Below, one piece after another: positions 18,580-32,802 of a stretch of 46,216 bases of DNA. How positions within the stretch are numbered: the stretch's first letter is position 1; each line of letters opens with the position of its first letter. Origin of the DNA: Fundidesulfovibrio magnetotacticus (lineage in GTDB: Bacteria > Desulfobacterota > Desulfovibrionia > Desulfovibrionales > Desulfovibrionaceae). The position numbers were made by a program, and so were the translations under genes. Where the stretch lies: the NCBI RefSeq assembly GCF_013019105.1, contig NZ_BLTE01000024.1:1-46216 (forward strand), written 5' to 3'. The notes beneath the pieces are model-generated. The model ran no database searches, had not been told where the DNA came from, and was given only the letters and a program-made list of their open reading frames with translations.

Positions 18580-18598
18580 AAAATCCTGCGAAGGGGGG

Positions 18599-18627
18599 TT
18601 GCCAAGGGAAGGGCAACCGTGTACTTA
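18599..18627 (+). promoter_or_regulatory. Candidate promoter of the tRNA-Met gene
   Basis: TTGCCA, 17 bases, then TACTTA (poor -10 match) end 28 bases before the mature tRNA 5' end. The placement is right for a tRNA promoter, but the -10 match is weak. Confidence 0.3.
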
Positions 18628-18655
18628 GCCCCTCCTGCCGCGAGCGGCAATTTGT

Positions 18656-18732
18656 GGCGAGGTAGCTCAGTCGGTTAGAGCATGCGGCTCATATCCGCAG
18701 TGTCGGGGGTTCAATTCCCTCCCTCGCTACCA
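18656..18732 (+). tRNA. tRNA-Met (anticodon CAT)
   Basis: A full 77-base cloverleaf with encoded CCA. The acceptor is GGCGAGG/CCTCGCT (G1-T72 wobble), the D arm GCTC/GAGC, the anticodon stem TGCGG/CCGCA around loop CTCATAT, and the T arm GGGGG TTCAATT CCCTC. The CAT anticodon allows elongator Met, initiator Met or lysidine-modified Ile2. The anticodon stem lacks the three G-C pairs of initiators and the 1-72 pair is not C/A, so initiator is excluded. Elongator Met is preferred over Ile2. Confidence 0.92.
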
Positions 18733-18742
18733 AGAGAACAAC

Positions 18743-18782
18743 GGCCTCTCAGTGTAACCCACTGAGGGGCCTCCTTCTTTTT
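18743..18782 (+). terminator. Rho-independent terminator of tRNA-Met
   Basis: GGCCTCTCAGTG pairs with CACTGAGGGGCC (one G-T pair) around TAACC, followed by TCCTTCTTTTT. It lies 10 bases after the tRNA. Confidence 0.9.
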
Positions 18783-18919
18783 GGCGGCGCTCCCCTCCGG
18801 GCAGGCCTGCCCCGTACTCCGTGCCGGGCCGACGGAACTTGTGCGCCGGTCCGCGCCCGGTTAGAGTGTCAGGCGACGCGCGGCGGCGCGTCGCGACGTC
18901 TACCCAAGGAGCCTGCCGC

Positions 18920-19270
18920 ATGCCTGGCGAACACTTGAACTGGGACGATCTGGAATGGGACATCCCCGCACGGGGGGTCCGGCGCAAGGTGGTGCACGGA
19001 GCGGGCTACACCCTGGCCTTGGTGGAGCTCTCGCCGGACGACTCGCCCGCCCTCCACGCCCACCCTCACGAGCAGGCCAGCACCGTGCAGAACGGGCACG
19101 GCGTCTTCATCGTGGACGGCAGGCGACACCCGGTGCGAAGCGGCGACGTGGTGCGCATCGCTTCCAACGTCCCCCACGCCCTGGCCGTGCCCGGGCCGGG
19201 CGTCGTCACCGTGCTGGACGTGTTCGTGCCCAGGAGGGAGGAGTTCCCGGAGTCGAAGAGGAAAGCGTGA
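18920..19270 (+). CDS. KdgF-like cupin
   Basis: A 116-residue single-domain cupin. The metal-site segment ALHAHPHEQAS has His46, His48 and Gln52, and the second half SGDVVRIASNVPHAL supplies His86. The overall shape closely follows KdgF: an N-terminal W..GV+R+++ segment, the HPHEQ loop, VDGRRHPVRSGD, and the C-terminal LDVFVPRREEF. KdgF opens 4,5-unsaturated uronates released by pectin or alginate lyases. It converges on the end of the hexuronate cluster, which supports a uronate role, but generic cupins share the metal motif. The ATG follows AAGGAG. Confidence 0.8.
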   Translation: MPGEHLNWDDLEWDIPARGVRRKVVHGAGYTLALVELSPDDSPALHAHPHEQASTVQNGHGVFIVDGRRHPVRSGDVVRIASNVPHALAVPGPGVVTVLDVFVPRREEFPESKRKA

Positions 19271-19347
19271 ACCGCCCCCGCTCCGCCCGCCGCTGACGCC
19301 CGCGCTCCGGCGGGAGCCTCCCCTTGGCGGGCACGGCCCCTCGGCGC

Positions 19348-20604
19348 TCAGCGGGGCTTCAGGCGGTGCAGCACCTCGCCCGCGTCCTCCACGAGCAGGA
19401 CGCCTTCGTCCTCTCGGCCCCGGTACGCCTCGATGTCGATGGCGTCCGGGTCCATGTACCCCAGGTTGATGCGGCGGCACTCCTCCTCCGGGATGGACGT
19501 GGCCAGAATCACCTCGATGCGCGGCATCTCCACCCCGTCCTCGAACCGGCCGAGGCCGCGCACGTGCGTGGAATGCGCCAGCACGGCCCAGGGCACGTCC
19601 TTGAACTGGTCCATCCTTTTCAGGAAGTAGTCGCGCGAGTGGTAGCCCACCTTTTTGATCAGCTCGCCCCAGGTGTCCGAGACGCGCGTGATGTGCTTGC
19701 CGTGGATGATGAGCCTGCCCCCGTCCGCAACCACGGGCTCCAGCTTGTACATCACCTTTCCCGCCACCCACAGCTCGTCGTACATGTGCGACGCCGTGCC
19801 CAGCACCGTGTGGTAGGGCTTGTCCTTGGTGACGATGTGCAGCTTGGCGGAAAGTTCCGTGGCCATGGTCCAGGCTTCGCGCGTCTCGCCCACGTAGAGC
19901 CCCGCCAACTCCTGCTTGGAGCGCACCACCATGGACATGCACAGCCTGGGCACCGTGACCAGCCTGGCCGCCCGCGTAAGGGCCTCGCGCACGGGCGTCT
20001 GCCGGATGCCGATGGTGTCCCAGCAGGTGACCACCGCGCCCAGCCAGTGGGTGAAGTGCAGAAAATCGCCCCCCGCCACGCCGGGGAACAGATACTTGTC
20101 GCCCCCGGAGAAACCGGCCACCTCGTGGGGGAACACCGGCCCGAGGATCACGATCAGGTCGTAGTCGTACACGTGGCGGTTGATGGCCACGTCGACGCCC
20201 TGGGCGAAGAGTCCGCCCGAGATGTCGCGCACGTCCTCGTCGGAGAGCCGCCCGATCACCTTGAGGGTGTCGGGCAGGTCCCAGCGGTGGTTCAACAGCC
20301 TGGACCCGGGCAGCAGCCGCGCGCGCGTCTCGGGCGTGAGGCCGTAGAGTTCCTCGATCTCACGCTCGGGCAGCGGCTGATGGGTGCCCAGGGCCACCAT
20401 GAAATCCAGGCAGGCCACGTGGGGGACCATGAGTTCGGCCAGGTTCCTGATCATCATGGGCAGGGGGCAGGTTCGCGTGGTGTCCGGCGTGAGGACCAGC
20501 ACGCGCTTGCCCGCGAACGCCTTCCTCGGCGCGCCGTGCTCCATGACGGAGCGAACTTCGGCCTCGCTCAACCCCTTGTCCAGATATCCGATTCCGTCTG
20601 CCAT
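19348..20604 (-). CDS. LarA-family nickel-pincer 2-hydroxyacid racemase/epimerase
   Basis: A 418-residue LarA homologue. Residues matching those of lactate racemase are visible: DTTR (41-44), GTHQP with His75, NH at 105-106, His160 and Lys170 in PHEVAGFSGGDKYLFPG, and His186 in FLHFTHW. The His160-Lys170-His186 spacing (10 and 16) equals that of the lactate enzyme, whose lysine tethers the nickel-pincer nucleotide and whose histidine binds nickel. The cofactor enzymes LarB, LarC and LarE are not in this window. As the last gene of a hexuronate cluster, 11 bases after an alcohol dehydrogenase gene, it is better read as a sugar-acid 2-epimerase (mannonate/gluconate) than a lactate racemase. Confidence 0.88.
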   Translation of the reverse strand: MADGIGYLDKGLSEAEVRSVMEHGAPRKAFAGKRVLVLTPDTTRTCPLPMMIRNLAELMVPHVACLDFMVALGTHQPLPEREIEELYGLTPETRARLLPGSRLLNHRWDLPDTLKVIGRLSDEDVRDISGGLFAQGVDVAINRHVYDYDLIVILGPVFPHEVAGFSGGDKYLFPGVAGGDFLHFTHWLGAVVTCWDTIGIRQTPVREALTRAARLVTVPRLCMSMVVRSKQELAGLYVGETREAWTMATELSAKLHIVTKDKPYHTVLGTASHMYDELWVAGKVMYKLEPVVADGGRLIIHGKHITRVSDTWGELIKKVGYHSRDYFLKRMDQFKDVPWAVLAHSTHVRGLGRFEDGVEMPRIEVILATSIPEEECRRINLGYMDPDAIDIEAYRGREDEGVLLVEDAGEVLHRLKPR

Positions 20605-20615
20605 GGGCGTCCCCC

Positions 20616-21779
20616 TTACATGGACTTGGTGAAAACGTCCGCCACGTCCTCGCGCGAGAGCGCCACGGGCGTGATGTCGAAATGCCGTCCCACCGTGGCG
20701 TAGACGTTGTCGGTCAAGGCCCGGACGTCGGACGGCGAGAAGCCGTGACCGGAAAGCCTTTCGCCGTCAAGTCCGCACCGCGCGATAAGGTCTTCGAGCG
20801 CCCGCGCGAAGGGCATGGGTTTCCCGTCGTCCGCGCCCAGGGCCCCGGCCAGCGCCAGGAAGGCCTCCGGCTTGCGGGATTCCAGGATGCCGAAGAAGGC
20901 CCGGGAGAGCATCACCAGACCCAGGCCGTGCGGCAGGGAGGGATTCATGGCCGAGAGCGCGTGCTCCATGGGGTGGTGCACGATGTTGGCCGAAAGCGTC
21001 TGGCAGACGCCCGCCGCCGTGGCCGCCCAGGCCATGCCCGCGCGGGCCTCCAGGTTGGAGCCGTCCCTGATGGCCGTCGGCAGATGCCTGGAAATGAGAC
21101 GCACGGACTCCAGGCTGAAAAGCTCCGAGGCTGGCTGGCTCACCGTGGCCAGGAAGGTCTCCGCGGCGTGGAAGAAGGCGTCCATGCCGGTGTGGGCCGT
21201 CTGGGCGGGGGGCAGGCCGATGGTCAGTTCAGGGTCCACGATGGCCAGCGCGGGGATGGTGCTCTCGAACCCGAAGCCCAGCTTCTCCTTGCTCTCCAGG
21301 CGGCTGATCACCGCCCAGGGGTCGCACTCCGAGCCCGTGCCCGACGTGGTGGTGATGGTCACGATCGGCAGCGGCGGCTTCTCGGGCTGCCTGCGTCCGC
21401 CCGTGCCGCGCTGCACGTACTCCCAGAAACGGCCGGGATTCGTGGCGGCCACCGCGACGGCCTTGGCCGCGTCCATGGGGCTTCCGCCTCCCAGGCCGAT
21501 CACCACGTCGCAGGAGCGCTCGCGCGCCAGACGCGCCGCCTCGTCGATGGAGGACTCCACGGGGTTCGGCGTGACGCCCGCGTAGACGACGGCCTCCATG
21601 CCCCGGCCTTCCAGGGCTCGGACCACCCTGCCCAGGATCCCCGCCCGCTCCATGGCGCCGCTCGCGCCCGTGACCACAAGGGCCTTGCCGCCCGGCAGGT
21701 GGGGTGTCGAGCCCAGCTCGGAGAGGCGCCCGGGACCGAAAAGGATGCGGGTGGGCATGAACAGATTGAAGGCATTCAT
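20616..21779 (-). CDS. Iron-containing (group III) alcohol dehydrogenase
   Basis: A 387-residue NAD(P)-dependent dehydrogenase. The nucleotide loop is GLGGGSPMDAAKAVA (GGGS at 97-100), followed by TTSGTGSE. Metal ligands by pattern are Asp200 and His204 (HTGMDAFFHAAE), His269 (HHPMEH) and His284 (LPHG). Such enzymes interconvert alcohols and aldehydes or ketones. In the hexuronate cluster it may reduce a keto-uronate or recycle NAD(P)H, but its substrate is unknown. It lies between a 33-codon ORF and the larA-like gene. Confidence 0.9.
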   Translation of the reverse strand: MNAFNLFMPTRILFGPGRLSELGSTPHLPGGKALVVTGASGAMERAGILGRVVRALEGRGMEAVVYAGVTPNPVESSIDEAARLARERSCDVVIGLGGGSPMDAAKAVAVAATNPGRFWEYVQRGTGGRRQPEKPPLPIVTITTTSGTGSECDPWAVISRLESKEKLGFGFESTIPALAIVDPELTIGLPPAQTAHTGMDAFFHAAETFLATVSQPASELFSLESVRLISRHLPTAIRDGSNLEARAGMAWAATAAGVCQTLSANIVHHPMEHALSAMNPSLPHGLGLVMLSRAFFGILESRKPEAFLALAGALGADDGKPMPFARALEDLIARCGLDGERLSGHGFSPSDVRALTDNVYATVGRHFDITPVALSREDVADVFTKSM

Positions 21780-21798
21780 GGTGTGGCCTCGCTATGGT

Positions 21799-21900
21799 TT
21801 AGTGCTGCATGGGGCGTCCGCTCCCCTCGTCCGCGCGGACCGGGGCCCGGTTCCGGCCCATGGCGGACAGCCCCGCCCGGGCGATGTCTTGGGTGCTCAT
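21799..21900 (-). CDS. 33-residue small ORF in the hexuronate cluster
   Basis: A short frame beginning MSTQDIARAGLSAMGRN and ending in a hydrophilic tail, with a GGGAG site 7 bases before its ATG. It fills most of the 131-base gap between the kinase and dehydrogenase genes, while most neighbouring gaps in the cluster are 7-22 bases. It could be a small protein, a translational coupler, or a remnant of a deleted gene. No family recognised. Confidence 0.35.
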   Translation of the reverse strand: MSTQDIARAGLSAMGRNRAPVRADEGSGRPMQH

Positions 21901-21911
21901 GGCGGGGCTCC

Positions 21912-23411
21912 CTATGCGTTGGCGATGACCTGCGCGTAGAGCGCGCGCTGGCGCTCGACGGCCTCCAGGTGGAGTGCGTGGGCCCCGGCGTCCGGGGCGA
22001 GGGCGGTCCCCTCGGGAACGGGAAGGTCGGCCACGTCGCGCACCACGCCCAGGGCCTCCAGGGCCATCAGGGCCGCGCCGCGCATGGACGGCTCCTCCAC
22101 GTCCGGGAAGAGCACCTCGCGCCCCACGGCGTCCGTGAGGATGCGCCGCCAGGCCGACGAGGCCCGCAACGCCCCGCCTCCGGCCACCACGGTGAATCGT
22201 CCGGGCAGCACGGCGGCAAGCTCCTCCAGCACCATGTACAGGCGCTGGGCCACCGATTCCAGCCCCGCCCTGAAAATCTCCACGGGCCGCGTGGCCAGGG
22301 TCATGCCCAGCACGGCCCCGTTGGCCTTGCCGGACCAGCCCGGCGCGCGCTCTCCCGCCATGAGCGGGAGCACGGTCAGCCCGTGGGAGCAAGGCTTCAT
22401 GGACGCCACCTCGCGTTCCACATCCTCCGGAGCGCCCAGGCGCAGCACCTCGCGCATCCAGGCGGGCAGCGACCCGCCCTCTGTGAGCGCCCCGCCGGGC
22501 AGGGAGCGTTCACGGTCCAGGCGGTAGCGCCACAGGGCCTTGGGCAGCATGCCGGGCGCGCCGGGCGTTACCGCGCGCACGGCGCTGGTGGTGCCCAGCG
22601 TCACGGCCACGCGTTCCGGCGAGGCACAGCCCGTGCCCACGTTGGCGGCCGCCCCGTCGCCCATCAGGGGGAACCACGGGATGTTCGCCAGGGCGGGCCA
22701 GCGCGTGTGCCAGCCGTCGGCCAGCCCCGTGCAGGGCTCGTCCAGGTCCGCCAGGGGCGAGAACAGCGACGGCGTGAGCTCCAGGCGGCCCAGCAGCTCC
22801 TCATCCCAGCGCAGCTCCCGCGAATCCAGGAGTCCGGACCAGGAAGCCGCGCTGAAGCTGGCGCGGGCCTTCCCGAAGAGGGTCAGCTCCAGATACTCGC
22901 CCAGCGTGACGAACCTTGCCGCCGAACGGAACACCTCGGGCCGGTGGCGCTTGAGGTGCAGCAGGCGCGGCGCGGCGTAGCTGGGGTGGAAGCGACACCC
23001 TGTCCGCTGCCTGAAACGCTCCTCGTCCAACTCGCGGCGCAGGAACTCCGCCTCCCCGGCGGAACTCAGGTCCGCGTAGGTGGAGAGCCGGGTCATGGGC
23101 CGCGCGTCGCGGTCCACGGCCATGAGGTTGGAGACGAAGGAGCATCCGCCGACGGCCTTGATGGAGCGGGCCATGTCGCCCGCATCGGCCAGCACCCGGT
23201 CGATGCAGGAGAAGAGTCCGTCCAGCAGGGCGTCGGGGTCGGCGGTGTTCTGGCCGTCCGGATCGCCGCGCAGGACGGTGGGCGCGGCGGCGGCAAGCCC
23301 CTCCACCAGCCTGCCTCCCGCGTCGAACACTCCGGCGCGGGTGGTGGTGGAGCCCACATCGAGGGCCAGCACCAGGGGGGCGGCGGCCTTTGAGGGCGGG
23401 ATGCTCTCCAT
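21912..23411 (-). CDS. FGGY-family sugar or sugar-acid kinase (gluconokinase candidate)
   Basis: A 499-residue FGGY kinase. The N-terminal phosphate loop is LALDVGSTTTRAGVFD. The second domain carries PLMGDGAAANVGTG, VTLGTTSAVR and the adenosine motif VVAGGGALRASSAWRRILTD. FGGY kinases phosphorylate polyols, ketoses or gluconate. The cluster contains no KDG kinase, and relatives beside uxaE in Thermotoga are gluconate kinases, so gluconate is the favoured substrate; xylulose or a ketose would be alternatives. It starts 7 bases after the uxaE stop, so it is in the same transcript. Confidence 0.88.
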   Translation of the reverse strand: MESIPPSKAAAPLVLALDVGSTTTRAGVFDAGGRLVEGLAAAAPTVLRGDPDGQNTADPDALLDGLFSCIDRVLADAGDMARSIKAVGGCSFVSNLMAVDRDARPMTRLSTYADLSSAGEAEFLRRELDEERFRQRTGCRFHPSYAAPRLLHLKRHRPEVFRSAARFVTLGEYLELTLFGKARASFSAASWSGLLDSRELRWDEELLGRLELTPSLFSPLADLDEPCTGLADGWHTRWPALANIPWFPLMGDGAAANVGTGCASPERVAVTLGTTSAVRAVTPGAPGMLPKALWRYRLDRERSLPGGALTEGGSLPAWMREVLRLGAPEDVEREVASMKPCSHGLTVLPLMAGERAPGWSGKANGAVLGMTLATRPVEIFRAGLESVAQRLYMVLEELAAVLPGRFTVVAGGGALRASSAWRRILTDAVGREVLFPDVEEPSMRGAALMALEALGVVRDVADLPVPEGTALAPDAGAHALHLEAVERQRALYAQVIANA

Positions 23412-23418
23412 GCTCGGC

Positions 23419-24975
23419 CTAGGCTCCCGTCAGGGGTCGCAGGTGGCGCTCGAAGTGGATGCGAAGCACTTCCTCGTGCAGGGCGCGGTGTTCCTTGAGC
23501 AGGGCCGCCAGGCGCTCCCTGAAGGATGGCCCGCCCCGCGCCCCCGGGGCGGTGAGCACCGAACCGAAGGTGACGTGCAGTATCTGGCGGCCGTTGTCGT
23601 AGCCGAGGTAGGCCGCTTCGAGCACGCCCTTGTCGAGACGCTCCGGCGGGGAAGAACCGCCCAGCACGGCCGAGATGTGGTAGCTGGCCTTGTCCGTGTC
23701 GAAGCGGGCGCGGGAGAACCCGACGATTTCGCGGAACAGGTCCGGGTCGGCCCGGCAGGCCACGCGCAGGGCCTCCAGGTAGCTGGTCCCGGCGGTTTTC
23801 ACGTGGAAGACGCCCCTGGTGGCCTTGGCGAGCAGGGGGTAGACCCCGAACTTGTCCGATCCGCTGTGCAGGGAGAGCTTGTAGGGGCCGAAGCGCTCGG
23901 CCACGGCGGCGTGCCGGGCCAGCACGTCGCGCAGTTCGCGCAGGTCGCCCCGGTAGTCCACGCCCTTCTCGAAGGCTCCGGGGAAGCGCGGGGCGAGGCT
24001 CACGATGGCGACGCCCCGTCGCTTGAGTTCCATGGCGATGTAGCAATGCTCGGCAACGCTGGTGGGCTCCTCGGTCTCGTCGACGGAGACCTCGATCTCC
24101 CAGGGCTTCCCGGCGCGGACCTCGGCGATGTGGGCGGCCATGGCCTGGATGTGGTCCAGGGCGCGGCCGTACTTCACCACGGCCCGGTACAGGGTCTGCC
24201 TGTCGAAGGCGACCGCGCCCGTGCCGAGATCGAAGGATTTGCCCTCGTAGAGCCCGGCCGCCTGCTCCGCGCCCCCCTGCCCGGCCTGGACCATGGCCTC
24301 GAAGCGCTTCTCGAGTTCCGCCCCGTCGTACCCCCCGGCGTTCTGGTCCACGTGGTCGGAGGGATCGATGGTGAAGAAGACGAAGCCGGACGCGGCGGTC
24401 ACGTCCACGTCCGCGAAGGTTTTCAGGTGGTCGGCGTCCGCGCCGGTGGGGCCGGTCCAGCCGGAGCGCAGCGCCCCGAAGACGGCGTCGGACATCACCT
24501 CCGGCGGTGTGCGGCGGGTGCGGGTCATCTCCCGGATGGATTGCTGGCAGAAGATGGGGACAAGGCCCTCCCCGGCCGCGCGCATGGCCGCGGCATGGCC
24601 GGGGGTGGCCAGGCCGATGCGGTCTCCGAAGCCGAAGGAGGGGGCGAGCCCGGTGGCCCCCGGGGTGAGCGAGGGCATGGCGGCCAGGAGCGCGGGCAGG
24701 TTGGCCGGGCAGGAGCGTCCTAAGGACAGGGAGTATCCGCCCGCATGATCGAGCGTACCCTCCGCCAGGGAAAGCAGGGGCGCGCCCGGGGTCACCGAAA
24801 AGACGTGCTCCACTCCGCTTTTGTCCATGACGCCCGCCACGCCGCCCCCGGCGGGCGCGAGAGACGCCGCCACGACATCCGAACCCAACGTGCCGGAAAG
24901 GGCGTCGGTCAGCTTGTCCCGGCCTTCTCCCTGGTGGACGAGGAATGCCCCCAGGGGGGCCTTGATGGCTTCCAT
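23419..24975 (-). CDS. uxaE: Tagaturonate/fructuronate epimerase (UxaE family)
   Basis: A 518-residue protein of the UxaE type. It has a TIM-barrel-like C-terminal half with TFADVDVTAASGFVFFTIDPSDHVD, WEIEVSVDETEEPTSVAEHCYIA, FGPYKLSLHSGSDKFGVYP and FHVKTAGTSYLEALR. These acidic and histidine residues fit a metal-dependent keto-sugar epimerase. UxaE links galacturonate and glucuronate breakdown by interconverting D-tagaturonate and D-fructuronate, as in Thermotoga. Neighbours UxaC, an SDR and an FGGY kinase repeat the Thermotoga grouping. The ATG follows GGAG; it is 11 bases after the SDR gene. Confidence 0.85.
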   Translation of the reverse strand: MEAIKAPLGAFLVHQGEGRDKLTDALSGTLGSDVVAASLAPAGGGVAGVMDKSGVEHVFSVTPGAPLLSLAEGTLDHAGGYSLSLGRSCPANLPALLAAMPSLTPGATGLAPSFGFGDRIGLATPGHAAAMRAAGEGLVPIFCQQSIREMTRTRRTPPEVMSDAVFGALRSGWTGPTGADADHLKTFADVDVTAASGFVFFTIDPSDHVDQNAGGYDGAELEKRFEAMVQAGQGGAEQAAGLYEGKSFDLGTGAVAFDRQTLYRAVVKYGRALDHIQAMAAHIAEVRAGKPWEIEVSVDETEEPTSVAEHCYIAMELKRRGVAIVSLAPRFPGAFEKGVDYRGDLRELRDVLARHAAVAERFGPYKLSLHSGSDKFGVYPLLAKATRGVFHVKTAGTSYLEALRVACRADPDLFREIVGFSRARFDTDKASYHISAVLGGSSPPERLDKGVLEAAYLGYDNGRQILHVTFGSVLTAPGARGGPSFRERLAALLKEHRALHEEVLRIHFERHLRPLTGA

Positions 24976-24986
24976 GCTCTGCTCCG

Positions 24987-25784
24987 TCAGATCGAAGTGA
25001 CGGCGAATCCGCCGTCCACCACGAGGTTGGCTCCGGTTATGAAGCTGCCGGCCTTGTCCGATGCCAGAAGGAGGGTTGCTCCCACAAGCTCCTCCGCCTC
25101 GCCGAAGCGGTCCATGGGGGTCTGGCGCATGATGGAGGCGATGCGGTCCTTGTCGAGCACCTTGCGGTTCTGCTCGGCCGGAAAGAAGCCCGGGCACAGG
25201 GCGTTGACCCGGATGCCCCTGCCTGCCCATTCGCGGGCCAGGTTCTGCGTCAGGTTCCACACGGCCGCCTTGGTGAGACTGTAGGTGAACACCCGGGACA
25301 ACGGCCTCAGCGCGGACATGGAGCTCAGGTTGATGATGGAGCCGCCCCTGCCCGCCCCTGTCCAGTGGGAGGCGACCACCTGGCACCCCAGGTGCACGGA
25401 GAGGAGGTTCGTGCGGACGATGCGCTCGAATTCCTCCTCGGCGATCTCCAGGTAGGGCGTGGCCGAATTGACGCCCGCCCCGTTCACCCAGACGTCCACG
25501 CCGCCGAAACGGTCCAGGGAAAGTTCAAGTGCAGCTTGAAGGTCCGCCTTGCTGGTGGCCTCGGCCCTGGCGAAGAGCACCTCGTCCTCGGGCGCGCCCC
25601 AGGCTTCGCGGTGCGCGCGGGCCTTGGACTCGTCCCTGCCGACCAGCACGACCCGGCAGCCCGCCCGCCACAGCCCTTTGGCCATGGCCCCGCAGAGCAC
25701 GCCCGTTCCGCCCACCACCACGGCCGTCTTGCCGGTCATGCCGAACAGTCCGGCCAGAAAACGCTCCGTTTCCGTGTTGCTCAT
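24987..25784 (-). CDS. SDR oxidoreductase, probable fructuronate reductase (D-mannonate oxidoreductase)
   Basis: A 265-residue classical short-chain dehydrogenase. It has the cofactor loop VVVGGTGVLCGAM (25-32), NGAG (101-104), Ser154/155, Tyr168 and Lys172 (YSLTK), and the C-terminal ITGANLVVDGGFAV. SDR-type enzymes replace UxuB as fructuronate reductase in several uronate clusters and make D-mannonate from D-fructuronate; that role is inferred from position between the TRAP transporter and uxaE. An in-frame start 30 bases earlier is less likely because ATG 25784 has GGGGAGAG in front. Confidence 0.85.
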   Translation of the reverse strand: MSNTETERFLAGLFGMTGKTAVVVGGTGVLCGAMAKGLWRAGCRVVLVGRDESKARAHREAWGAPEDEVLFARAEATSKADLQAALELSLDRFGGVDVWVNGAGVNSATPYLEIAEEEFERIVRTNLLSVHLGCQVVASHWTGAGRGGSIINLSSMSALRPLSRVFTYSLTKAAVWNLTQNLAREWAGRGIRVNALCPGFFPAEQNRKVLDKDRIASIMRQTPMDRFGEAEELVGATLLLASDKAGSFITGANLVVDGGFAVTSI

Positions 25785-25800
25785 GAGGGCTCTCCCCGAC

Positions 25801-27084
25801 TTACTTGCCAAGATATTTCGGCACGATGAGGGTTATCCAGGGGATGTAGGTGGCCGCCATGAGCGCCACGACCATCGCCGCGTAGAACGGCCAGATGGCG
25901 CGCATGGCCTCCTCGATCTTGATCTTGCCCACCGCGCACCCCACGAACAGCACCGACCCGACCGGAGGGGTGCACAGGCCGATGCCCAGGTTGATCATGA
26001 GCACGATGCCGAACTGCACCGGGTCCATGCCCACGGCCTTCATCACCGGCAGGAAAATGGGCGTGCAGATGATGATGAGCGGGGCCATGTCCATGAACGT
26101 GCCCAGGAAGAGCAGGATGGCGTTCACGATGAACATGATCACGTAGGGATTGTCGGACACGGCCCGCAGGATCTCGTAGAGCTTTGCGGGCACCTGGTTC
26201 AGGGCCAGCAGCCAGCCGAAGGACGCGGCCGTGCCGATGATCAGCAGCACCAGGGCCGTGGTGCGCGTGGCGTTCACCGTTGCCCGCTTGAAATCCTCCC
26301 ACTTGAGGGACTTGTAGCCCAGCGCCGTGACAGCGACCGCGTAGATGACCGCGATGGCCGAAGACTCCGTGGCCGTGAAGATGCCCGAAAGCACGCCGCC
26401 GATGATGATCACGGCGGTGAGCAGGCCCGGCAGCGCCCCGAAGAAGGAGGCCAGCAGGGCCGCGAACCCCGGGAAGGGCTCGCGGGGGTAGTTGCGCTTC
26501 ACAGCGATGAGGTAGGCGGCGGCCATGAGGCACAGGCCCACCAGCACGCCGGGGACGAAGCCGCCCAGGAACATGTTGGTGACGGAAACCGTCCCGCCCG
26601 CCGCGATGGAATAGATGATCATGTTGTGGCTGGGCGGGATGATGAGCCCGATGGTGGCGGCGGTGACGGTTACGCTCACGGCGTAGTCCGTGCCGAATCC
26701 CTTGCGCTTCATCATGGGGATGAGCGTGGTGCCCAGGGCGGAGGCGTCCGCCACGGCGGAGCCCGAGATGCCGCCGAAGAACATGCTGGCCACCACGTTC
26801 ACCAGGCCAAGCCCTCCCCGGATGTGGCCCACCATGCCGCTGGCCAGGCGCACCAGCCGGTCGGAGATGCCGCCGTACTGCATGATCTCGCCCGCGTAGA
26901 TGAAGAACGGGATGGCGATGAGCGAAAACGAGTTCATGCCCGAGGCCATGCGCTGGAACACCACCATGGGGGGAATGTCCATGTAGACGATGGTGATCAG
27001 GCTGGAGACGCCCAACACCACGGCGATGGGCACCCCGATGAGCATGAGGACCAGGAAGGAGCCGAACAGCACCCAGAGTTCCAT
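25801..27084 (-). CDS. dctM: TRAP transporter large permease (DctM)
   Basis: A 427-residue inner-membrane protein with about 12 helices and family motifs GIPIAVVLG-like at the start, MASMFFGGISGSAVADASALG, and PPSHNMIIYS. It is the sodium-dependent translocation subunit of a tripartite periplasmic transporter. It follows dctQ by 10 bases and precedes the SDR gene by 16. Together with UxaC and UxaE it should import hexuronates or unsaturated uronates. Confidence 0.95.
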   Translation of the reverse strand: MELWVLFGSFLVLMLIGVPIAVVLGVSSLITIVYMDIPPMVVFQRMASGMNSFSLIAIPFFIYAGEIMQYGGISDRLVRLASGMVGHIRGGLGLVNVVASMFFGGISGSAVADASALGTTLIPMMKRKGFGTDYAVSVTVTAATIGLIIPPSHNMIIYSIAAGGTVSVTNMFLGGFVPGVLVGLCLMAAAYLIAVKRNYPREPFPGFAALLASFFGALPGLLTAVIIIGGVLSGIFTATESSAIAVIYAVAVTALGYKSLKWEDFKRATVNATRTTALVLLIIGTAASFGWLLALNQVPAKLYEILRAVSDNPYVIMFIVNAILLFLGTFMDMAPLIIICTPIFLPVMKAVGMDPVQFGIVLMINLGIGLCTPPVGSVLFVGCAVGKIKIEEAMRAIWPFYAAMVVALMAATYIPWITLIVPKYLGK

Positions 27085-27094
27085 GTTGACCCTC

Positions 27095-27577
27095 CTAGTC
27101 CCTGGCCGCGCGCCAGAAATGCTCGATGCTGAAGAGAACGAAAAGCAACCCCGCCACGGGGAACGGCAGGTAGCTCAGGCCCGTGGAGATGCCCAGGGTG
27201 GGGATGACATGCCCCCAGGTGGTCATCACCTGTTGCCAGCCGAAGTAGACCATGCACCCGCCGAACGTCCCGACCACCACATGAATGAGCATGGAGCACG
27301 CCTTGCGCATGGGCCGGGGCATAAGGTCCAGGGTGAAGGAGATGCCTATGTGCGTCTTTTCGTGCACCCCGGCCGCCGCGGCGATCATGATGAACCACAC
27401 CATGACGAACAGGACCGACGTCTCGGACCACTGTGGGCTGTCGTTCATGATGTATCTCGAAAAGATCTGCCACCCGATGACAACAATGCAATAGACGAGC
27501 CCTATCGCACTGAACTGCATGCACAGACGTGCGATCCGGGTGTTGAATGCCGTCAGTCTTTCCAGCGCGGACGTCAT
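27095..27577 (-). CDS. dctQ: TRAP transporter small permease (DctQ)
   Basis: A 160-residue membrane protein with four predicted helices; the second contains the typical QIFSRYIMNDSPQWSET segment, and the third WFIMIAAAAGVHEKTHIGI. It pairs with DctM in the TRAP membrane complex. ATG 27577 follows AAGGAG by 6 bases; an earlier in-frame start would lie within an intercistronic hairpin. Confidence 0.93.
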   Translation of the reverse strand: MTSALERLTAFNTRIARLCMQFSAIGLVYCIVVIGWQIFSRYIMNDSPQWSETSVLFVMVWFIMIAAAAGVHEKTHIGISFTLDLMPRPMRKACSMLIHVVVGTFGGCMVYFGWQQVMTTWGHVIPTLGISTGLSYLPFPVAGLLFVLFSIEHFWRAARD

Positions 27578-27598
27578 GAAGGTCTCCTTGATGGGGGG

Positions 27599-27626
27599 GC
27601 CGGACGCCGCCCTGGCGGCGTCCGGC
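27599..27626 (-). promoter_or_regulatory. Perfect hairpin between dctP and dctQ
   Basis: Thirteen-base perfect arms (GCCGGACGCCGCC and GGCGGCGTCCGGC) meet with a 2-base centre, 12 bases after the dctP stop and 22 before dctQ. There is no T-run. An intercistronic stem here would protect dctP mRNA from 3' decay and raise the binding protein above the membrane subunits, as known for malE-malF. Confidence 0.7.
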
Positions 27627-27637
27627 GGCATCCGTGC

Positions 27638-28621
27638 CTACTGAACGGCCTGGATCTTCGTCACCAGGTCCTTGAGCTGGGGGGTGTTGGCGAACTTGTC
27701 GTACAAGGGAGCCATGGCCTTGATGAAGGGCTCCTTGTTGACTGTGTTGATCTTGCTGCCCGCGGCCTCGACCACCTTGCGGGCCTTGTCCTCGCGCTCG
27801 GCCCAGAGCTTGCGCATCACGGGCACCGACTCCCTGGCGGCCTTGCGCAGCAGGGCCTGGTCTTCCTTGGAGAGCTTGTTCCAGGTCACCTTGGAGACCA
27901 CCAGCACCTCGGGGGACATGGAGTGCTCGTCCAGAGAGTAGAACTTGGCCACCTCGAAGTGGCGGGTGGATTCGTAGGAGGGCCAGTTGTTCTCCGCGCC
28001 GTCGATGACGCCGGTGGAAAGGGCCTCGTACACCTGGCCGAATTCCATGGGCGTGGCGTTGGCGCCGAGGGCGGCCACCATGGAGACGAACAGGTCGGAG
28101 TTCTGCACGCGGATCTTCATGCCCTTCATGTCTTCAGGCGTGTTGATGGGCTTCTTGGAGTTGTAGAACGAGCGCGCGCCCGAGTCGTAGAAGCACAGGC
28201 CGATGAGGCCGTAGGGCTCCAGCGAGTCCAGGATCTGGTCGCCGATGGGGCCGTCCATGACTTTGTGCATGTGTTCCACGGAGCGGAAGATGAAGGGCAG
28301 GCCGGGAATGGCGGTGGGCGGGGCCACGCTGTTGAGCGGCGCCATGTTCACGCGGTTCACGTCGATGGCCCCCGCGATGGTCTGCTCGATGGTGTCCTTT
28401 TCCTCGCCCAGCTGGCGACCCGGGAAAACCTTCATGGTGATGCGTCCCTTGGACTGTTCTTCGAGCGTCTTGGCCATGGCCTTCACGGCCTGGACGGTGG
28501 GATAGTCCTCGGGGTGGGTGTCGGCGCTCCTGAGGGAAACCTTGTTCTGGGCGAAGGCCTGTCCCGCCAGGGACAGGATCAGCGCGCCCGCCATCAAAAA
28601 ACGCATCGCTTTCGTGGCCAT
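27638..28621 (-). CDS. dctP: TRAP transporter solute-binding protein (DctP)
   Basis: A 327-residue periplasmic binding protein with a signal peptide (residues 1-24, ending AFA). Family features: KVSLRSADTHPEDYPTV at the mature N-terminus, GRQLGEEKDTIEQTIAGAIDV, and the ligand-binding strand PEDMKGMKIRVQNSDLFVSMVAALGANATPM with the conserved Arg that holds the substrate carboxylate. TGVIDGAENNWPSYESTRHFEVAKFYSLDEHS follows. The cluster implies a uronate ligand. A strong AAGGAGG precedes the ATG, but it sits in a small hairpin. Confidence 0.95.
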   Translation of the reverse strand: MATKAMRFLMAGALILSLAGQAFAQNKVSLRSADTHPEDYPTVQAVKAMAKTLEEQSKGRITMKVFPGRQLGEEKDTIEQTIAGAIDVNRVNMAPLNSVAPPTAIPGLPFIFRSVEHMHKVMDGPIGDQILDSLEPYGLIGLCFYDSGARSFYNSKKPINTPEDMKGMKIRVQNSDLFVSMVAALGANATPMEFGQVYEALSTGVIDGAENNWPSYESTRHFEVAKFYSLDEHSMSPEVLVVSKVTWNKLSKEDQALLRKAARESVPVMRKLWAEREDKARKVVEAAGSKINTVNKEPFIKAMAPLYDKFANTPQLKDLVTKIQAVQ

Positions 28622-28622
28622 G

Positions 28623-28641
28623 TGTTCCTCCTTGTGGAACA
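28623..28641 (-). promoter_or_regulatory. Hairpin over the dctP ribosome binding site
   Basis: On the transcript TGTTCC pairs with GGAACA, placing ACAAGGA in the loop and part of the Shine-Dalgarno in the stem. Six base pairs would be modest; it might tune translation of the binding protein. Confidence 0.35.
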
Positions 28642-28674
28642 GGGTGTCTCGTCGACCAAATCGATCCGCGCGAA

Positions 28675-30090
28675 TCAAAGGCGGTAAGCCTTTTTGGCCA
28701 GGGAATAGGCCAGCTCCCGCGCCAAGAGGACGGCCTCGTCCTCGTCCAGGCGGTGGGTGGCCACCATGTCGGCCAGGAAGGAACAGTCGACCCTTCTGGC
28801 CACGTCGTGCCGGGCGGGTATGGAAAGAAACGCCCGCGTGTCGTCGTTGAAGCCCACGGTGTTGTAGAAGCCCGCAGTCTCCGTGACCATGCGGCGGTAG
28901 CGCATCATGCCCTCGGGGCTGTCGTGGAACCACCAGGCCGGACCCAGCCGAAGGACCGGATACACCCCGGCCAGAGGGGCCAACTCCCGGCTGTAGGCCG
29001 ATTCGTCCAGGGTGAAGAGGATCACCGTGAGGCCCCGCTCGTGCCCGAACCTGTCCAGCATGGGCTTCAGGGCGTGCACGAAGTCCGTGCGGGAGGGGAT
29101 GTCCGCTCCCTTGTCGCGCCCGAAGCGGGTGTGGATGTCCAGGCTGTGGTTGCGGAAGGAGCCGGGATGGATCTGGATCACCAGTCCGTCGTCCAGGCTC
29201 ATGCGCACCATCTCGGTCAGCATCTGTGCGCGGAACAGCTCGGCTTCGGCCGGGGTGGCCGTGCCGCGCAGGGCCTTGTGGAAAAGGCGCTCGCACTCCG
29301 AAGCGTCGAGATCGGCCGTGGCCGCCGAGGGATGGCCGTGGTCCGTGGCCGTGGCCCCCAGGGACTTGAAGAATTCCCGTCTGGCCGCCAGGGCGCGCAG
29401 GTAGCCTTTCCACGATCCGGCGTCCTCGCCGGTGAGCTGGCCGAGACTGGCCACGTTGGCCGCGAAGCCCTCGAAGTCCGGGTCCACGCAGGGGTCCGGG
29501 CGGAAGGTTGGGACCACCCTGCCCTTCCAGCCGCTGTCCAGCACGGCCTTGTGATGTTCCAGGGAATCCAGCGGGGAATCCGTGGTGGCGATCACCTCGA
29601 TGTTGTAGCGCTCGTAGAGCGCCCGGCATCGGAACTCCGGCAGGGACAGCCTGGCGGCGAGCCGGTCGTAGAAGCTCTCCGCGTTGGCGGCTTCCAGGCG
29701 CTCCTCGATGCCGAACACGTGCAGGAACACGTGTTCCAGCCACATGCGCGAGGGGGTGCCCCTGAGCAGGTGGTAGTTCTCGGCAAAGAGGCGCCAGATG
29801 GCGCGCGGGTCGGCTTCGGTCCGGCCGCCGTCCACGCGGGGCACGCCCAGGGCTTCCAGGGGCACTCCCTGGCTGTGGAGCATGCGGAACACGTAGTGGT
29901 CCGGAATGAGGAAGAGCACGGCCGGGTCCGGGAAGCGGACGTCCTCGGCGTACCAGCGGGGATCGGTGTGGCCGTGGGGGCTCACGATGGGCAGGTCCTT
30001 CACCTCGGCGTAGAGTCGGCGGGCTATGCCGCGTGTTCCGGGGTCTGCCGGGAAGAGCCTGTCCTCGTGCATGGTCCAGTTCGTGTTCAT
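28675..30090 (-). CDS. uxaC: Uronate isomerase (glucuronate/galacturonate isomerase)
   Basis: A 471-residue amidohydrolase-fold isomerase of full UxaC length. Signatures: LPIVSPHGHTDPRWYAED (metal-binding HGH), RTPSRMWLEHVF-like segment, TTDSPLDSLEHH, IQIHPGSFRNHS, and the C-terminal RLGPAWWFHDSPEGMMRYRRMVTETAGFYNTVGFNDDTRAFLSIPARHDVARR. It converts D-glucuronate to D-fructuronate and D-galacturonate to D-tagaturonate. It is the first enzyme gene of the cluster, 21 bases after the regulator gene, and 53 bases before dctP. Confidence 0.97.
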   Translation of the reverse strand: MNTNWTMHEDRLFPADPGTRGIARRLYAEVKDLPIVSPHGHTDPRWYAEDVRFPDPAVLFLIPDHYVFRMLHSQGVPLEALGVPRVDGGRTEADPRAIWRLFAENYHLLRGTPSRMWLEHVFLHVFGIEERLEAANAESFYDRLAARLSLPEFRCRALYERYNIEVIATTDSPLDSLEHHKAVLDSGWKGRVVPTFRPDPCVDPDFEGFAANVASLGQLTGEDAGSWKGYLRALAARREFFKSLGATATDHGHPSAATADLDASECERLFHKALRGTATPAEAELFRAQMLTEMVRMSLDDGLVIQIHPGSFRNHSLDIHTRFGRDKGADIPSRTDFVHALKPMLDRFGHERGLTVILFTLDESAYSRELAPLAGVYPVLRLGPAWWFHDSPEGMMRYRRMVTETAGFYNTVGFNDDTRAFLSIPARHDVARRVDCSFLADMVATHRLDEDEAVLLARELAYSLAKKAYRL

Positions 30091-30111
30091 GGGGTTGTTT
30101 CCTTTGCGGGC

Positions 30112-30819
30112 CTATTCGCCCAGCAGTACGCGGCGCACCTGCTCCAGGTGGCGGCGCATGGCCGCGCGCGCGCCCTCGGCGTCCCCGACGGCGATCCTGT
30201 CCAGGATGACGCGATGGTCCTTGGCCGCACGCCTGGCGTTGGTGGGCAGCTTCACTTTCCTGCAGATGGCCTGGAAAAGGGGATGCCGCATGCCCTCCCA
30301 GAGGTCCTGCACGATGGCGCGCAGGACGGAATTGCGGGAAACGGCCGCGATGCGGGCGTGGAACAGGAGGTCGCCATCCTCGTGGGAAAGCACCTCCTGC
30401 GTTCCCGTCTCGATGTCCGCCTCCATCTTGCCGATGGCTTCGGCCAGGCCTTCGATCTCCTCGGAGGTGATGTCCCGGGCGGCGATGGCGGCCAGCTCCC
30501 CCTCGATGACGATGCGCGCGGAGATGAGGTCGAAGGGGCTGGGCCCCTGGTCCATGGAGGCGCGTACGGCCTGCCCGGGCTCGGCGGGCAGGTCCTTGAC
30601 GAAGATGCCCGACCCGGTGCGCACTTCGACCAGGCCCTGGAGTTCCAGGGCGATGATGGCCTCGCGGATGGTTGGCCTGCTCACGCCGAAGCGCAAGGCC
30701 AGGTCGCGCTCGGAAGGGAGGCGCTGCCCTGGCTGCCATTCCCGACCGGCCAGGGCCTCGGCCACCTGGCTCGCGACCTGCTGGTAGAGTCTCTGGCTTT
30801 CGACAGGCTGGAGAACCAT
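30112..30819 (-). CDS. GntR-family (FadR/FCD) transcriptional regulator of the hexuronate cluster
   Basis: A 235-residue regulator. The N-terminal winged helix contains YQQVASQVAEALAGREWQPGQRLPSERDLALRFGVSRPTIREAIIALELQGLVEVRTGSGIFV, a canonical GntR domain. The C-terminal FCD domain carries the metal/ligand pattern with His in LLFHARIAA and RRAAKDHRVIL. UxuR/ExuR-type members sense uronates. As the first gene of the cluster, with palindromic sites over its promoter, it probably represses itself and the downstream genes. ATG 30819 is chosen over an earlier in-frame start because GAGG lies 8 bases upstream and the earlier one would begin inside the promoter. Confidence 0.92.
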   Translation of the reverse strand: MVLQPVESQRLYQQVASQVAEALAGREWQPGQRLPSERDLALRFGVSRPTIREAIIALELQGLVEVRTGSGIFVKDLPAEPGQAVRASMDQGPSPFDLISARIVIEGELAAIAARDITSEEIEGLAEAIGKMEADIETGTQEVLSHEDGDLLFHARIAAVSRNSVLRAIVQDLWEGMRHPLFQAICRKVKLPTNARRAAKDHRVILDRIAVGDAEGARAAMRRHLEQVRRVLLGE

Positions 30820-30833
30820 GGGCAGACCTCGAC

Positions 30834-30850
30834 AAATTGGTTTGGCCAAT
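30834..30850. promoter_or_regulatory. Candidate GntR operator 1
   Basis: AAATTGGTTTGGCCAAT is an inverted repeat (ATTGG and CCAAT, 5-base centre). It resembles the ATTGGTATACCAAT consensus of UxuR-type repressors. It lies at the -10 region of the predicted cluster promoter, 15 bases from the regulator start. Confidence 0.45.
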
Positions 30851-30876
30851 GTCGCATCACGATTCAATTTGGTCAA
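30848..30876 (-). promoter_or_regulatory. Candidate promoter of the hexuronate cluster
   Basis: On the minus strand TTGACC (5 of 6), a 17-base spacer and GACATT (3 of 6), flanked by both putative operators. It would drive gntR-uxaC-dctPQM and the downstream enzymes. Confidence 0.45.
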
Positions 30877-30889
30877 GTGGCATTACCAA
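30869..30889. promoter_or_regulatory. Candidate GntR operator 2
   Basis: TTGGT and ACCAA half-sites face each other with an 11-base gap, overlapping the -35 element. The half-sites match those of operator 1; the wide gap makes this a weaker site. Confidence 0.35.
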
Positions 30890-31056
30890 TTTTTGCGTCC
30901 CGTCCCGACTTCCCGCTCGGCCTTCGCCGCAATTGCTCCAGCGCGAAAAATGATATACGCGCATAGAAATCCCCGCGGGCAAACTGCGCGGCGCCGCCCT
31001 TCGTCCGCCTTTCAGCTACTGCCTCGCGGCCCGCATCGGCGACGACCGAAGGCCTC

Positions 31057-32802
31057 ATGGGACACTACCGCCGGATCATCCTCTTCAACATTCTCGCGCT
31101 TCTGGCGTGGTGCTGCTGTATTTACGTCCTCTACACCAAGGCCATCAAGGACGACGTGCGCTCCATGCGCTTCGCGGCCCTCACCGAGGCCCGCATCGCC
31201 TACGACAAGGACATCACCTACCGGCGCTGGGCCGCCAAACTGGGCGGCGTGTACGCCGAGATCAGCGAGTCGCTGCACCCCAACGAACACCTCGACGTGC
31301 CGGGCCGGGACATCACAACCCCGGACGGCAAGCGCCTCACGCTCGTCAATCCCGCCTACATGACCCGCATGGTCCACGAAATCGCCCAGGAGGCCGCCGG
31401 GCTCAAGGGGCATATCACCAGCCTCGACCCCATCCGAGCGGCCAATGCACCTACTGCCTGGGAGGCGCAGGCCCTGCGCTCTTTCCAGGAAGGCGTCCCG
31501 GAATTCATCGCTTTCGACGACGAGGACGGACGCCCCGTACTGCGCTTCATGCGCCCCATGATCACCGAAAAGCCCTGCCTGAAGTGCCACGCCCGCCAGG
31601 GCTACAAGGAAGGGGACATCCGGGGCGGCATCAGCGTCACGATGCCCCTCGACCAGTACGCCCCGGCCCTGGCCGACGCCGAGTCCGGCACGCGCACCCG
31701 CTACACGCTCATCCTGCTGTCCGGCGTGGTGCTCATCGCCTTCTCCACGGGCGTGCTCTGGCTCAACGAACGCCTGCGCGACAAAACAATGCGCATCGCC
31801 ATGGAATCCGACCGCCGCATCCGCGAAAGCGAAGAGCGCTACAGGATGTATGTCCAGCACGCGCCCCTGGCCATCTTCATCGCCGACGGCCAGGGCCGCC
31901 TCGTGGACGTGAACCCCATGACCTGCGAGGTCACCGGCCACTCGCGAGCCGAGCTGCTGCGCCTCACCCTGCTGGACCTCCTGCCGGGCAACGCCCGCCG
32001 GGTGGGGCGACTGCATATGGAGAACGTCGCCGCCAAAGGGGCCACCGTGGGCGTGCTGCCCTACCTCACCCGGGAGGGCGCGGTGCGCTGGTGGGAGGTT
32101 TCGGCCGTGAAGCTCTCGGACGACCGCGTCCTGGGCTTCGCCAACGACATCTCCGACCGCAAGCGCGCCGAGGACACCCTCTCGGCCTCCCTGCACGAGA
32201 AAGAGGTGCTCCTGCGCGAAATCCACCACCGCGTGAAGAACAACCTCCAGATCGTGTGCAGCCTGCTGAGCCTCCAGGGACAGGGCGTCGACAACCAGGA
32301 CGCCCTTCGCGTGCTGGGCGACTGCCAATGCCGCGTCATGTCCATGGCCCTCGTCCACGAGCAACTCTACCGCTCCGGAGACCTCTCCGGCATCAACGTG
32401 CGCCACTACGTGGAGACCCTCCTCTCCCGGCTGCTGGCCTCCTGCAGGACGGAGTCGACGATCACCCTCTCCGTGGACATCCCGCCCATGAACCTGAGCC
32501 TGGACCAGGCCATCCCCTTCGGCCTGGTGCTCAACGAACTGGTCACCAACTCACTGAAGCACGCCTTCACGGGTCGCGCGTCCGGCCACATCGAGGTGCG
32601 CGGCGTCCAGGAGGACGGCGAAATGGCCTTCACCATCCGCGACGACGGCCTCGGGCTCCCGCACGGCTTCAAGGTGGAGCTCGCCACTTCGTTGGGCCTG
32701 CAGATCGTGAGCACGCTGGTGGGGCAGTTGCGCGGCAACATGGAAATGCGCTCCAACGGAGGCACCGAGTTCGTCTTCCACATTCCCGGTCCGGCCGCCT
32801 GA
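31057..32802 (+). CDS. Membrane sensor histidine kinase with periplasmic haem-type DUF3365 domain and PAS
   Basis: A 581-residue sensor kinase. Helix 1 is about residues 7-27. The periplasmic part (28-215) is of the Tll0287/DUF3365 type and contains the c-type haem motif CLKCH (174-178). Helix 2 is about 216-236, a PAS domain about 256-370, then a HisKA_2-type domain with LREIHHRVKNNLQIVCSLLSLQ (His390 or 391) and an HATPase with NELVTNSLKHAF and DDGLGLP. The layout suggests sensing of redox state, NO or CO via haem. No response regulator adjoins it, so its partner is elsewhere. The ATG follows GAAGG. Confidence 0.9.
   Translation: MGHYRRIILFNILALLAWCCCIYVLYTKAIKDDVRSMRFAALTEARIAYDKDITYRRWAAKLGGVYAEISESLHPNEHLDVPGRDITTPDGKRLTLVNPAYMTRMVHEIAQEAAGLKGHITSLDPIRAANAPTAWEAQALRSFQEGVPEFIAFDDEDGRPVLRFMRPMITEKPCLKCHARQGYKEGDIRGGISVTMPLDQYAPALADAESGTRTRYTLILLSGVVLIAFSTGVLWLNERLRDKTMRIAMESDRRIRESEERYRMYVQHAPLAIFIADGQGRLVDVNPMTCEVTGHSRAELLRLTLLDLLPGNARRVGRLHMENVAAKGATVGVLPYLTREGAVRWWEVSAVKLSDDRVLGFANDISDRKRAEDTLSASLHEKEVLLREIHHRVKNNLQIVCSLLSLQGQGVDNQDALRVLGDCQCRVMSMALVHEQLYRSGDLSGINVRHYVETLLSRLLASCRTESTITLSVDIPPMNLSLDQAIPFGLVLNELVTNSLKHAFTGRASGHIEVRGVQEDGEMAFTIRDDGLGLPHGFKVELATSLGLQIVSTLVGQLRGNMEMRSNGGTEFVFHIPGPAA

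Follow-up and report, generated by a model that had tools for sequence, protein, structure and literature searches.

How can hexuronates be degraded by a bacterium whose hexuronate genes come without a mannonate dehydratase? The question is raised by a ten-gene cluster of Fundidesulfovibrio magnetotacticus, which lies on the minus strand, from position 30819 down to 19348, of a 46,216-nucleotide stretch of DNA (contig NZ_BLTE01000024.1, assembly GCF_013019105.1; the window). The cluster encodes, in this order, a GntR-type regulator, the uronate isomerase UxaC, the transporter proteins DctP, DctQ and DctM, a short-chain dehydrogenase/reductase (SDR), the tagaturonate-fructuronate epimerase UxaE, an FGGY kinase, an iron-containing alcohol dehydrogenase (Fe-ADH) and a LarA homologue. 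An earlier note, made from the sequence letters, had described this gene set, its order and its strand, which Pfam and NCBIfam matches bear out, and had remarked on the lack of UxuA, KdgK and Eda; none of the three is found among the ten genes. By sequence, the cluster is in all likelihood a hexuronate uptake and degradation operon in which D-mannonate would be converted to D-gluconate by a nickel-dependent LarA-type epimerase and, as 6-phosphogluconate, handed to Gnd. For a broader proposal the balance tips slightly in favour: that a branch of nickel-pincer mannonate 2-epimerases, apparently unnamed and present in eight or more bacterial groups, defines a widespread way of turning hexuronates into ribulose 5-phosphate without a dehydratase (UxaC, UxaE, SDR, epimerase, one out of a number of unrelated kinases, and Gnd). 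Such a route would take the place of UxuA, KdgK and Eda and would be the sole hexuronate route in some bacteria, this one included.

In the proposed route, D-galacturonate and D-glucuronate would be imported by a tripartite ATP-independent periplasmic (TRAP) transporter composed of the solute-binding protein DctP (27638..28621; Pfam DctP, 302 bits), the small permease DctQ (27095..27631; Pfam DctQ, 112 bits) and the large permease DctM (25801..27084; Pfam DctM, 394 bits, and TIGR00786, 431 bits). The nearest solved relatives of DctP are 4n8y (403 bits), 4x8r (385) and 4ovr (356), followed by 4mhf (345); according to the consulted parts of the respective reports, 4n8y is bound to galacturonate and 4x8r to glucuronate (PMC11668362), and 4mhf binds both (PMC7660916). 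The closeness of the binding protein to these hexuronate-bound structures suggests a transporter of the hexuronate type. UxaC (28675..30090; NCBIfam NF002794, 580 bits, cut-off 387; Pfam UxaC, 264 bits), whose family converts galacturonate to tagaturonate and glucuronate to fructuronate, would yield one or the other, and UxaE (23419..24975; Pfam UxaE, 436 bits, cut-off 27) would epimerise tagaturonate to fructuronate. The SDR (24987..25784; Pfam SDR families, up to 164 bits), probably a D-fructuronate reductase (D-mannonate oxidoreductase), would then produce D-mannonate; its top NCBIfam match is PRK08277 D-mannonate oxidoreductase, with 227 bits against a cut-off of 281. The LarA homologue (19348..20604; Pfam Lar_N, PF09861, 72 bits, cut-off 23), a probable D-mannonate/D-gluconate 2-epimerase dependent on the nickel-pincer nucleotide (NPN) made by LarB, LarE and LarC, would invert C2 of mannonate to give D-gluconate, which the FGGY kinase (21912..23411; Pfam FGGY_N 117 and FGGY_C 66 bits) would phosphorylate to 6-phosphogluconate. 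This kinase, a probable gluconokinase for which mannonate kinase activity is also possible, matches gntK_FGGY gluconokinase best among NCBIfam models (196 bits, cut-off 649; xylulokinase 167, cut-off 380), and its nearest solved relative is the gluconate kinase 3gbt (131 bits). Finally, Gnd, encoded on another contig, would oxidise 6-phosphogluconate to ribulose 5-phosphate and CO2. UxaC, UxaE and the LarA homologue are thus found together, each over its Pfam cut-off; what we infer is which substrates the SDR, the epimerase and the kinase act on, and how the last steps are ordered.

The identity of the LarA homologue is central to this proposal. A sequence search of solved structures returned 4nar with 188 bits and a next best match of 41; 4nar is described as the Thermotoga D-gluconate 2-epimerase GntE2 (PMC7583248, consulted in part, as for the other statements drawn from it below). 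Similarly, when an AlphaFold model (predicted local distance difference test 84, predicted template modelling score 0.85; alignment of nine sequences) was compared with Foldseek, 4nar came first with a template modelling (TM) score of 0.86, followed by 18 other chains with TM 0.58-0.72, and all 19 PDB chains with an expect value (E) up to 0.001 were of the LarA type. Relatives were collected by a scan of GTDB contigs that gave 117 confirmed places, the best 80 of which were kept. With LarA numbering and residue roles taken from PMC7583248, the catalytic residues D72, H108, H174 and K298 correspond to D41, H75, H160 and K283, and the cofactor-binding residues R75, K184 and H200 to R44, K170 and H186, each of the seven being present in 80/80 relatives. 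The loop after the catalytic histidine carries E161-V162, where GntE enzymes have E and V or S, and is E-V in all 80; a glycine precedes the catalytic lysine in 73 of them, its GntE2 equivalent being G286. For the A and H expected of GntE enzymes at the LarA W358/T359 positions, an A343-H344 pair is likewise invariant (80/80), but GntE2 N348, placed at LarA W358 in PMC7583248, aligns with A340. Lactate racemase was rejected as an identity, the loop being E-V and not F-F and the best fold 4nar. The Lar_N domain, the modelled LarA fold, the key residues and the cofactor genes, all of which were found, place the protein with good reason in the LarA superfamily. It shares with the GntE types (GntE1, GntE2, LarAH15) a fold nearest to GntE2, the catalytic and cofactor residues and the substrate-loop glutamate, and since 4nar is nearest, these residues are kept and the cut-off of the group 18 putative hexonate epimerase model is missed, the protein is, as judged from sequence, GntE-like and outside every NCBIfam equivalog. 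The 80 relatives are 46-66% identical to the window protein and 33-41% to GntE2, and the seven scored with the group 18 model (NF052594) reach 154-194 bits, all under its cut-off of 500. Placement of the branch beside GntE2 in a tree is unsure, GntE2 having an end branch of 4.0; the outgroup was made up of five out of the ten further LarA loci that the profile search of the class had given, L102 and L105 having served in a previous tree.

The genome as a whole (4.46 Mb, 58 contigs, rated 100% complete with 0.28% contamination) was searched for genes of this and the alternative routes. UxuA gave 0 matches, with 5/14 control genomes positive, Thermotoga maritima and Escherichia coli among them; Eda (PF01081) gave 0 matches, with 8/14 controls positive, and the altronate/galactarate dehydratase UxaA (PF04295) gave 0, with 5/14 positive. 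These negatives for the 2-keto-3-deoxygluconate (KDG) route cover UxuA, UxaA and Eda; KdgK was left out of the genome-wide search, since the PfkB family to which it belongs is too broad to give a clear negative. With UxuA unmatched, as the mechanism in the earlier note anticipated, mannonate is left without a detected dehydratase. The sole protein of the ILVD_EDD family is IlvD (803 bits, cut-off 644; 241 bits with the Edd model, cut-off 708). An Entner-Doudoroff exit was rejected, given that protein and the unmatched Eda, and so was an altronate exit, UxaA being unmatched. A single Gnd is encoded on contig 9 (633 bits, cut-off 427), and larB (287 bits), larE (289 bits) and larC lie contiguously as larB-larE-larC on contig 16. 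A Lar_N search found one protein, the LarA homologue of the window, and a separate LarA profile search likewise gave one match; the Lar_N search was silent in the control Corynebacterium glutamicum, source of GntE1 (LarA homologue group 19), so that divergent homologues could escape it. With one Lar_N protein detected, a single client is apparent for the cofactor genes. The mechanism put forward in the earlier note, in which gluconate was led into the pentose phosphate or the Entner-Doudoroff route, therefore loses its second exit as far as the known genes go; the rest agrees with the checks that could be run (uxuA unmatched, larB, larC, larE and gnd present, co-occurrence elsewhere), the activity itself being predicted from sequence. 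What is read directly from the DNA are the families, the catalytic residues, the cofactor genes, gnd and the undetected UxuA, UxaA and Eda.

The earlier note knew of no description of such a combination; in this it was mistaken, the route having been proposed in 2012 for Thermotoga and GntE activity having been shown in 2020. As cited in the consulted parts of PMC6978723 and PMC7583248, Rodionova et al. (2012) proposed that in T. maritima mannonate is converted by GntE to gluconate and further to pentose phosphates, as is suggested here. According to PMC6978723, gntE is flanked in that organism by the genes for the reductase and for gluconate kinase. T. maritima is positive for UxuA and Eda, so that a KDG route may exist there alongside the branch, whereas neither was found here. 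GntE1 and GntE2 are reported to convert D-mannonate to D-gluconate with KM values of 120 and 17 mM (PMC7583248), and in the sections of PMC11770544 available LarAH15 is equated with GntE and LarAH10 described as active on mannonate. Lactobacillus suebicus, as far as PMC6978723 was consulted, is alike in using UxaC, UxaE and UxuB, followed by C2 epimerisation towards 6-phosphogluconate, there for the phosphoketolase route, and the same text gives UxuA, KdgK and KdgA as not detected in its proteome; it differs in that phosphorylation precedes epimerisation, through genes that the text leaves unidentified. The canonical route (UxuA or UxaA, KdgK, Eda) shares with the cluster UxaC, the reductase and the type of regulator; its UxuA, UxaA and Eda are unmatched here.

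The surroundings of the related epimerase genes show whether the association extends further. Neighbours were counted on the same strand within 8 kb by tblastn (E up to 1e-10), since gene calls miss or shadow some open reading frames; tblastn itself overlooks two divergent UxaC genes, at L014 (Pfam, 43 bits) and L015 (recognised by cluster). Among the 80 loci, an SDR was found near the epimerase in 47, Gnd in 20, UxaC in 13, UxaE in 13, a hydrolase of the haloacid dehalogenase (HAD) type in 12, a PfkB kinase in 7 and an FGGY kinase in 2. At least one of Gnd, UxaC and UxaE occurs in 29/80 loci and at least two in 14/80; flanks of at least 6 kb on both sides are available in 36/80, and 15 of these 36 carry one of the three. 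By simple arithmetic, with a span of 16 kb in a genome of several Mb that has gnd once or twice, chance would link Gnd to well under one locus in 80. By record title, the 20 Gnd-linked loci come from Spirochaetes (6), Hydrogenedentota (6), Verrucomicrobia (2), Chloroflexi, Neomarinimicrobiota, SAR324, KSB1 and Desulfobacterales (1 each); the last is a bin titled Paceibacterota, with a protein that clusters with those of Verrucomicrobia. Several runs are instructive: SDR, epimerase, a GntK-type gluconokinase (151 bits, cut-off 114) and Gnd at L028; TRAP transporter, SDR, Gnd and epimerase at L025, where the SDR passes the D-mannonate oxidoreductase cut-off (352 over 281); UxaC, SDR, epimerase, PfkB kinase and Gnd at L040; and UxaC, UxaE, SDR, epimerase, Gnd and PfkB kinase at L083. 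The survey of loci that the earlier note had called for therefore shows the epimerase beside uxaC, uxaE and gnd elsewhere. Moreover, the gene order of the window, Fe-ADH excepted, recurs in a second genome of the same family (G235, L008/L013). Given this recurrence, and given that other phyla too have the LarA homologue alongside SDR, UxaC, UxaE and Gnd, the cluster is more than a chance assembly.

Some of these loci have features of their own. A HAD-type hydrolase stands near both epimerase and Gnd at L014, L015, L016, L018, L020, L032, L033, L052, L056 and L061, in Spirochaetes and Hydrogenedentes, often together with a pyrophosphate-type phosphofructokinase, which may, speculatively, act on sedoheptulose phosphate after Gnd. 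A PdxB-like 2-hydroxyacid dehydrogenase is encoded immediately upstream of the epimerase at L029, L033, L045, L052, L056 and L061 (Hydrogenedentes, KSB1). In Verrucomicrobia (L038, L043, L053, L065), SDR-epimerase pairs lie by a sulfatase-type gene, with none of Gnd, UxaC and UxaE in reach; these pairs perhaps serve uronates of sulfated polysaccharides.

A number of observations weigh against the proposed reading of the cluster. None of Gnd, UxaC and UxaE was found near the epimerase in 51/80 loci, and in the 12 loci with a HAD hydrolase neither a PfkB nor an FGGY kinase was found nearby. Co-presence of UxuA and LarC was assessed in 50 of the 80 genomes, nearly all of the 80 being metagenome bins for which completeness is not given. 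UxuA was matched in 13/50 (E up to 0.001; 12 over the family cut-off), and thus coexists with the epimerase in part of them; 6/50 have a UxuA match with E below 1e-30, and two of these six (L018, L058) belong to the 24/50 in which the epimerase has Gnd, UxaC or UxaE nearby. LarC, on the supporting side, was found in 40/50. At the window itself, the LarA homologue is only 35% identical to GntE2 over 378 columns, and its 178 bits with the group 18 model lie far under the cut-off; the SDR and the FGGY kinase both stay under curated cut-offs, gnd is unlinked to the cluster, and the Fe-ADH, dispensable for the proposed route, has no step to fill. In addition, 4/6 other genomes of the genus hold LarA homologues of other types, so that this enzyme need not be the reason why larB, larC and larE were acquired.

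Among the alternatives, the one that survives best concerns the order of the last two steps: the FGGY enzyme would make 6-phosphomannonate, which the LarA homologue would epimerise to 6-phosphogluconate. Both activities are reported from L. suebicus cell extract (PMC6978723, in the part consulted), and the kinases encoded near the epimerase come from families unrelated to each other (FGGY, PfkB and GntK), the gluconokinase role of the first two being unproven. Against this order, the GntE enzymes were assayed on unphosphorylated mannonate, going by the available text of PMC7583248 and PMC11770544, and L028 places a GntK-type gluconokinase between epimerase and Gnd; phosphorylation first is accordingly regarded as unlikely. 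A different substrate, another hexonate or a uronate-derived acid such as altronate or an aldarate, is less probable still. It would give the Fe-ADH, otherwise without explanation, the part of a matching reductase, and the very high KM of GntE1 for mannonate led its authors to suspect a different native substrate (PMC7583248). The altronate dehydratase and Eda that such a product would need are, however, unmatched in the genome; the sister cluster L013 has nothing that matches the Fe-ADH, a single weak match turned up across the 80 loci (at L081, with 39% identity and some 9 kb away from the epimerase), and the Gnd linkage in 20/80 loci points to 6-phosphogluconate. Finally, an ordinary hexuronate operon with the KDG route encoded elsewhere and an unrelated LarA homologue is hardly credible: hexuronate genes are often dispersed, and KdgK, ManD-type dehydratases and other KDG aldolases lay outside the genome searches, but UxuA, UxaA and Eda are unmatched in a genome rated complete with controls that were positive.

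With epimerisation of mannonate to gluconate retained as the preferred reading, and the Thermotoga precedent being known, what is new here is that the route is apparently the sole one in a Desulfovibrio relative and that a separate epimerase branch, delimited by sequence, seems to extend over many phyla. A literature search that covered neither subscription papers nor supplements returned no report on this branch, and none that places the route in a Desulfovibrio relative. If the proposal is true, many uncultured bacteria would draw on the galacturonate and glucuronate of plant and animal glycans by a redox-neutral route that depends on nickel and leads to pentose phosphates. Standard annotation would overlook it, because a genome lacking uxuA and eda would be judged unable to use hexuronates. 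In such genomes the NPN cofactor genes would be linked with a definite pathway, and there would be testable substrates for a large LarA branch that is still uncharacterised.

Within the class, the cluster is rare. UxaE was detected in 3/348 genomes (G000, the genome of the window; G235; and G347, which is 58% complete) and this epimerase branch in two, G000 and G235, at about 800 bits, both being rows of the query alignment; the next match has 103 bits. Some LarA homologue (E up to 0.001) occurs in 111/348. UxaE was found in 0/6 other genomes of the genus. The operon was likely gained horizontally, and larBCE may be older in the genus than the operon. Past the cluster of G235 lie genes that by resemblance we take to be KduD-, KduI- and PfkB-like.

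As for the layout of the cluster, the regulator (30112..30819; Pfam FCD 85 and GntR 74 bits), which starts with ATG at 30819, is of the GntR/FCD type and nearest to UxuR, NanR and ExuR types, under their cut-offs (125 bits with the NCBIfam Uxu operon regulator model, cut-off 442). Going downward from it, and taking likely starts, the intergenic gaps measure 21, 53, 6, 10, 16, 11, 7, 132 and 11 bases. The earlier note's figure of 5-60 bases holds for eight of the nine, which span 6-53; the exception, 132 bases, lies between the FGGY kinase and the Fe-ADH (20616..21779; Pfam Fe-ADH, 171 bits, all NCBIfam cut-offs unreached) and could hold a separate promoter. A consensus scan of 18500-31300 gave nothing firm, with 1 promoter-like site against 0.8 expected and 10 terminator-like sites against 5.8 expected. 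Next to the cluster, a small cupin (18914-19270, plus strand; Pfam Cupin_2), presumably KdgF-like and concerned with uronate ring opening, converges with the 3' end of the LarA homologue gene. Further on, a major facilitator superfamily transporter (16105-17379, minus strand) matches the D-galactonate transporter subfamily with 320 bits (cut-off 395) and the 4-hydroxyphenylacetate permease model with 322 (cut-off 615). On the other side, a sensor histidine kinase with Tll0287-like, PAS and HisKA_2 domains (31057-32802, plus strand) is divergent from the cluster regulator.

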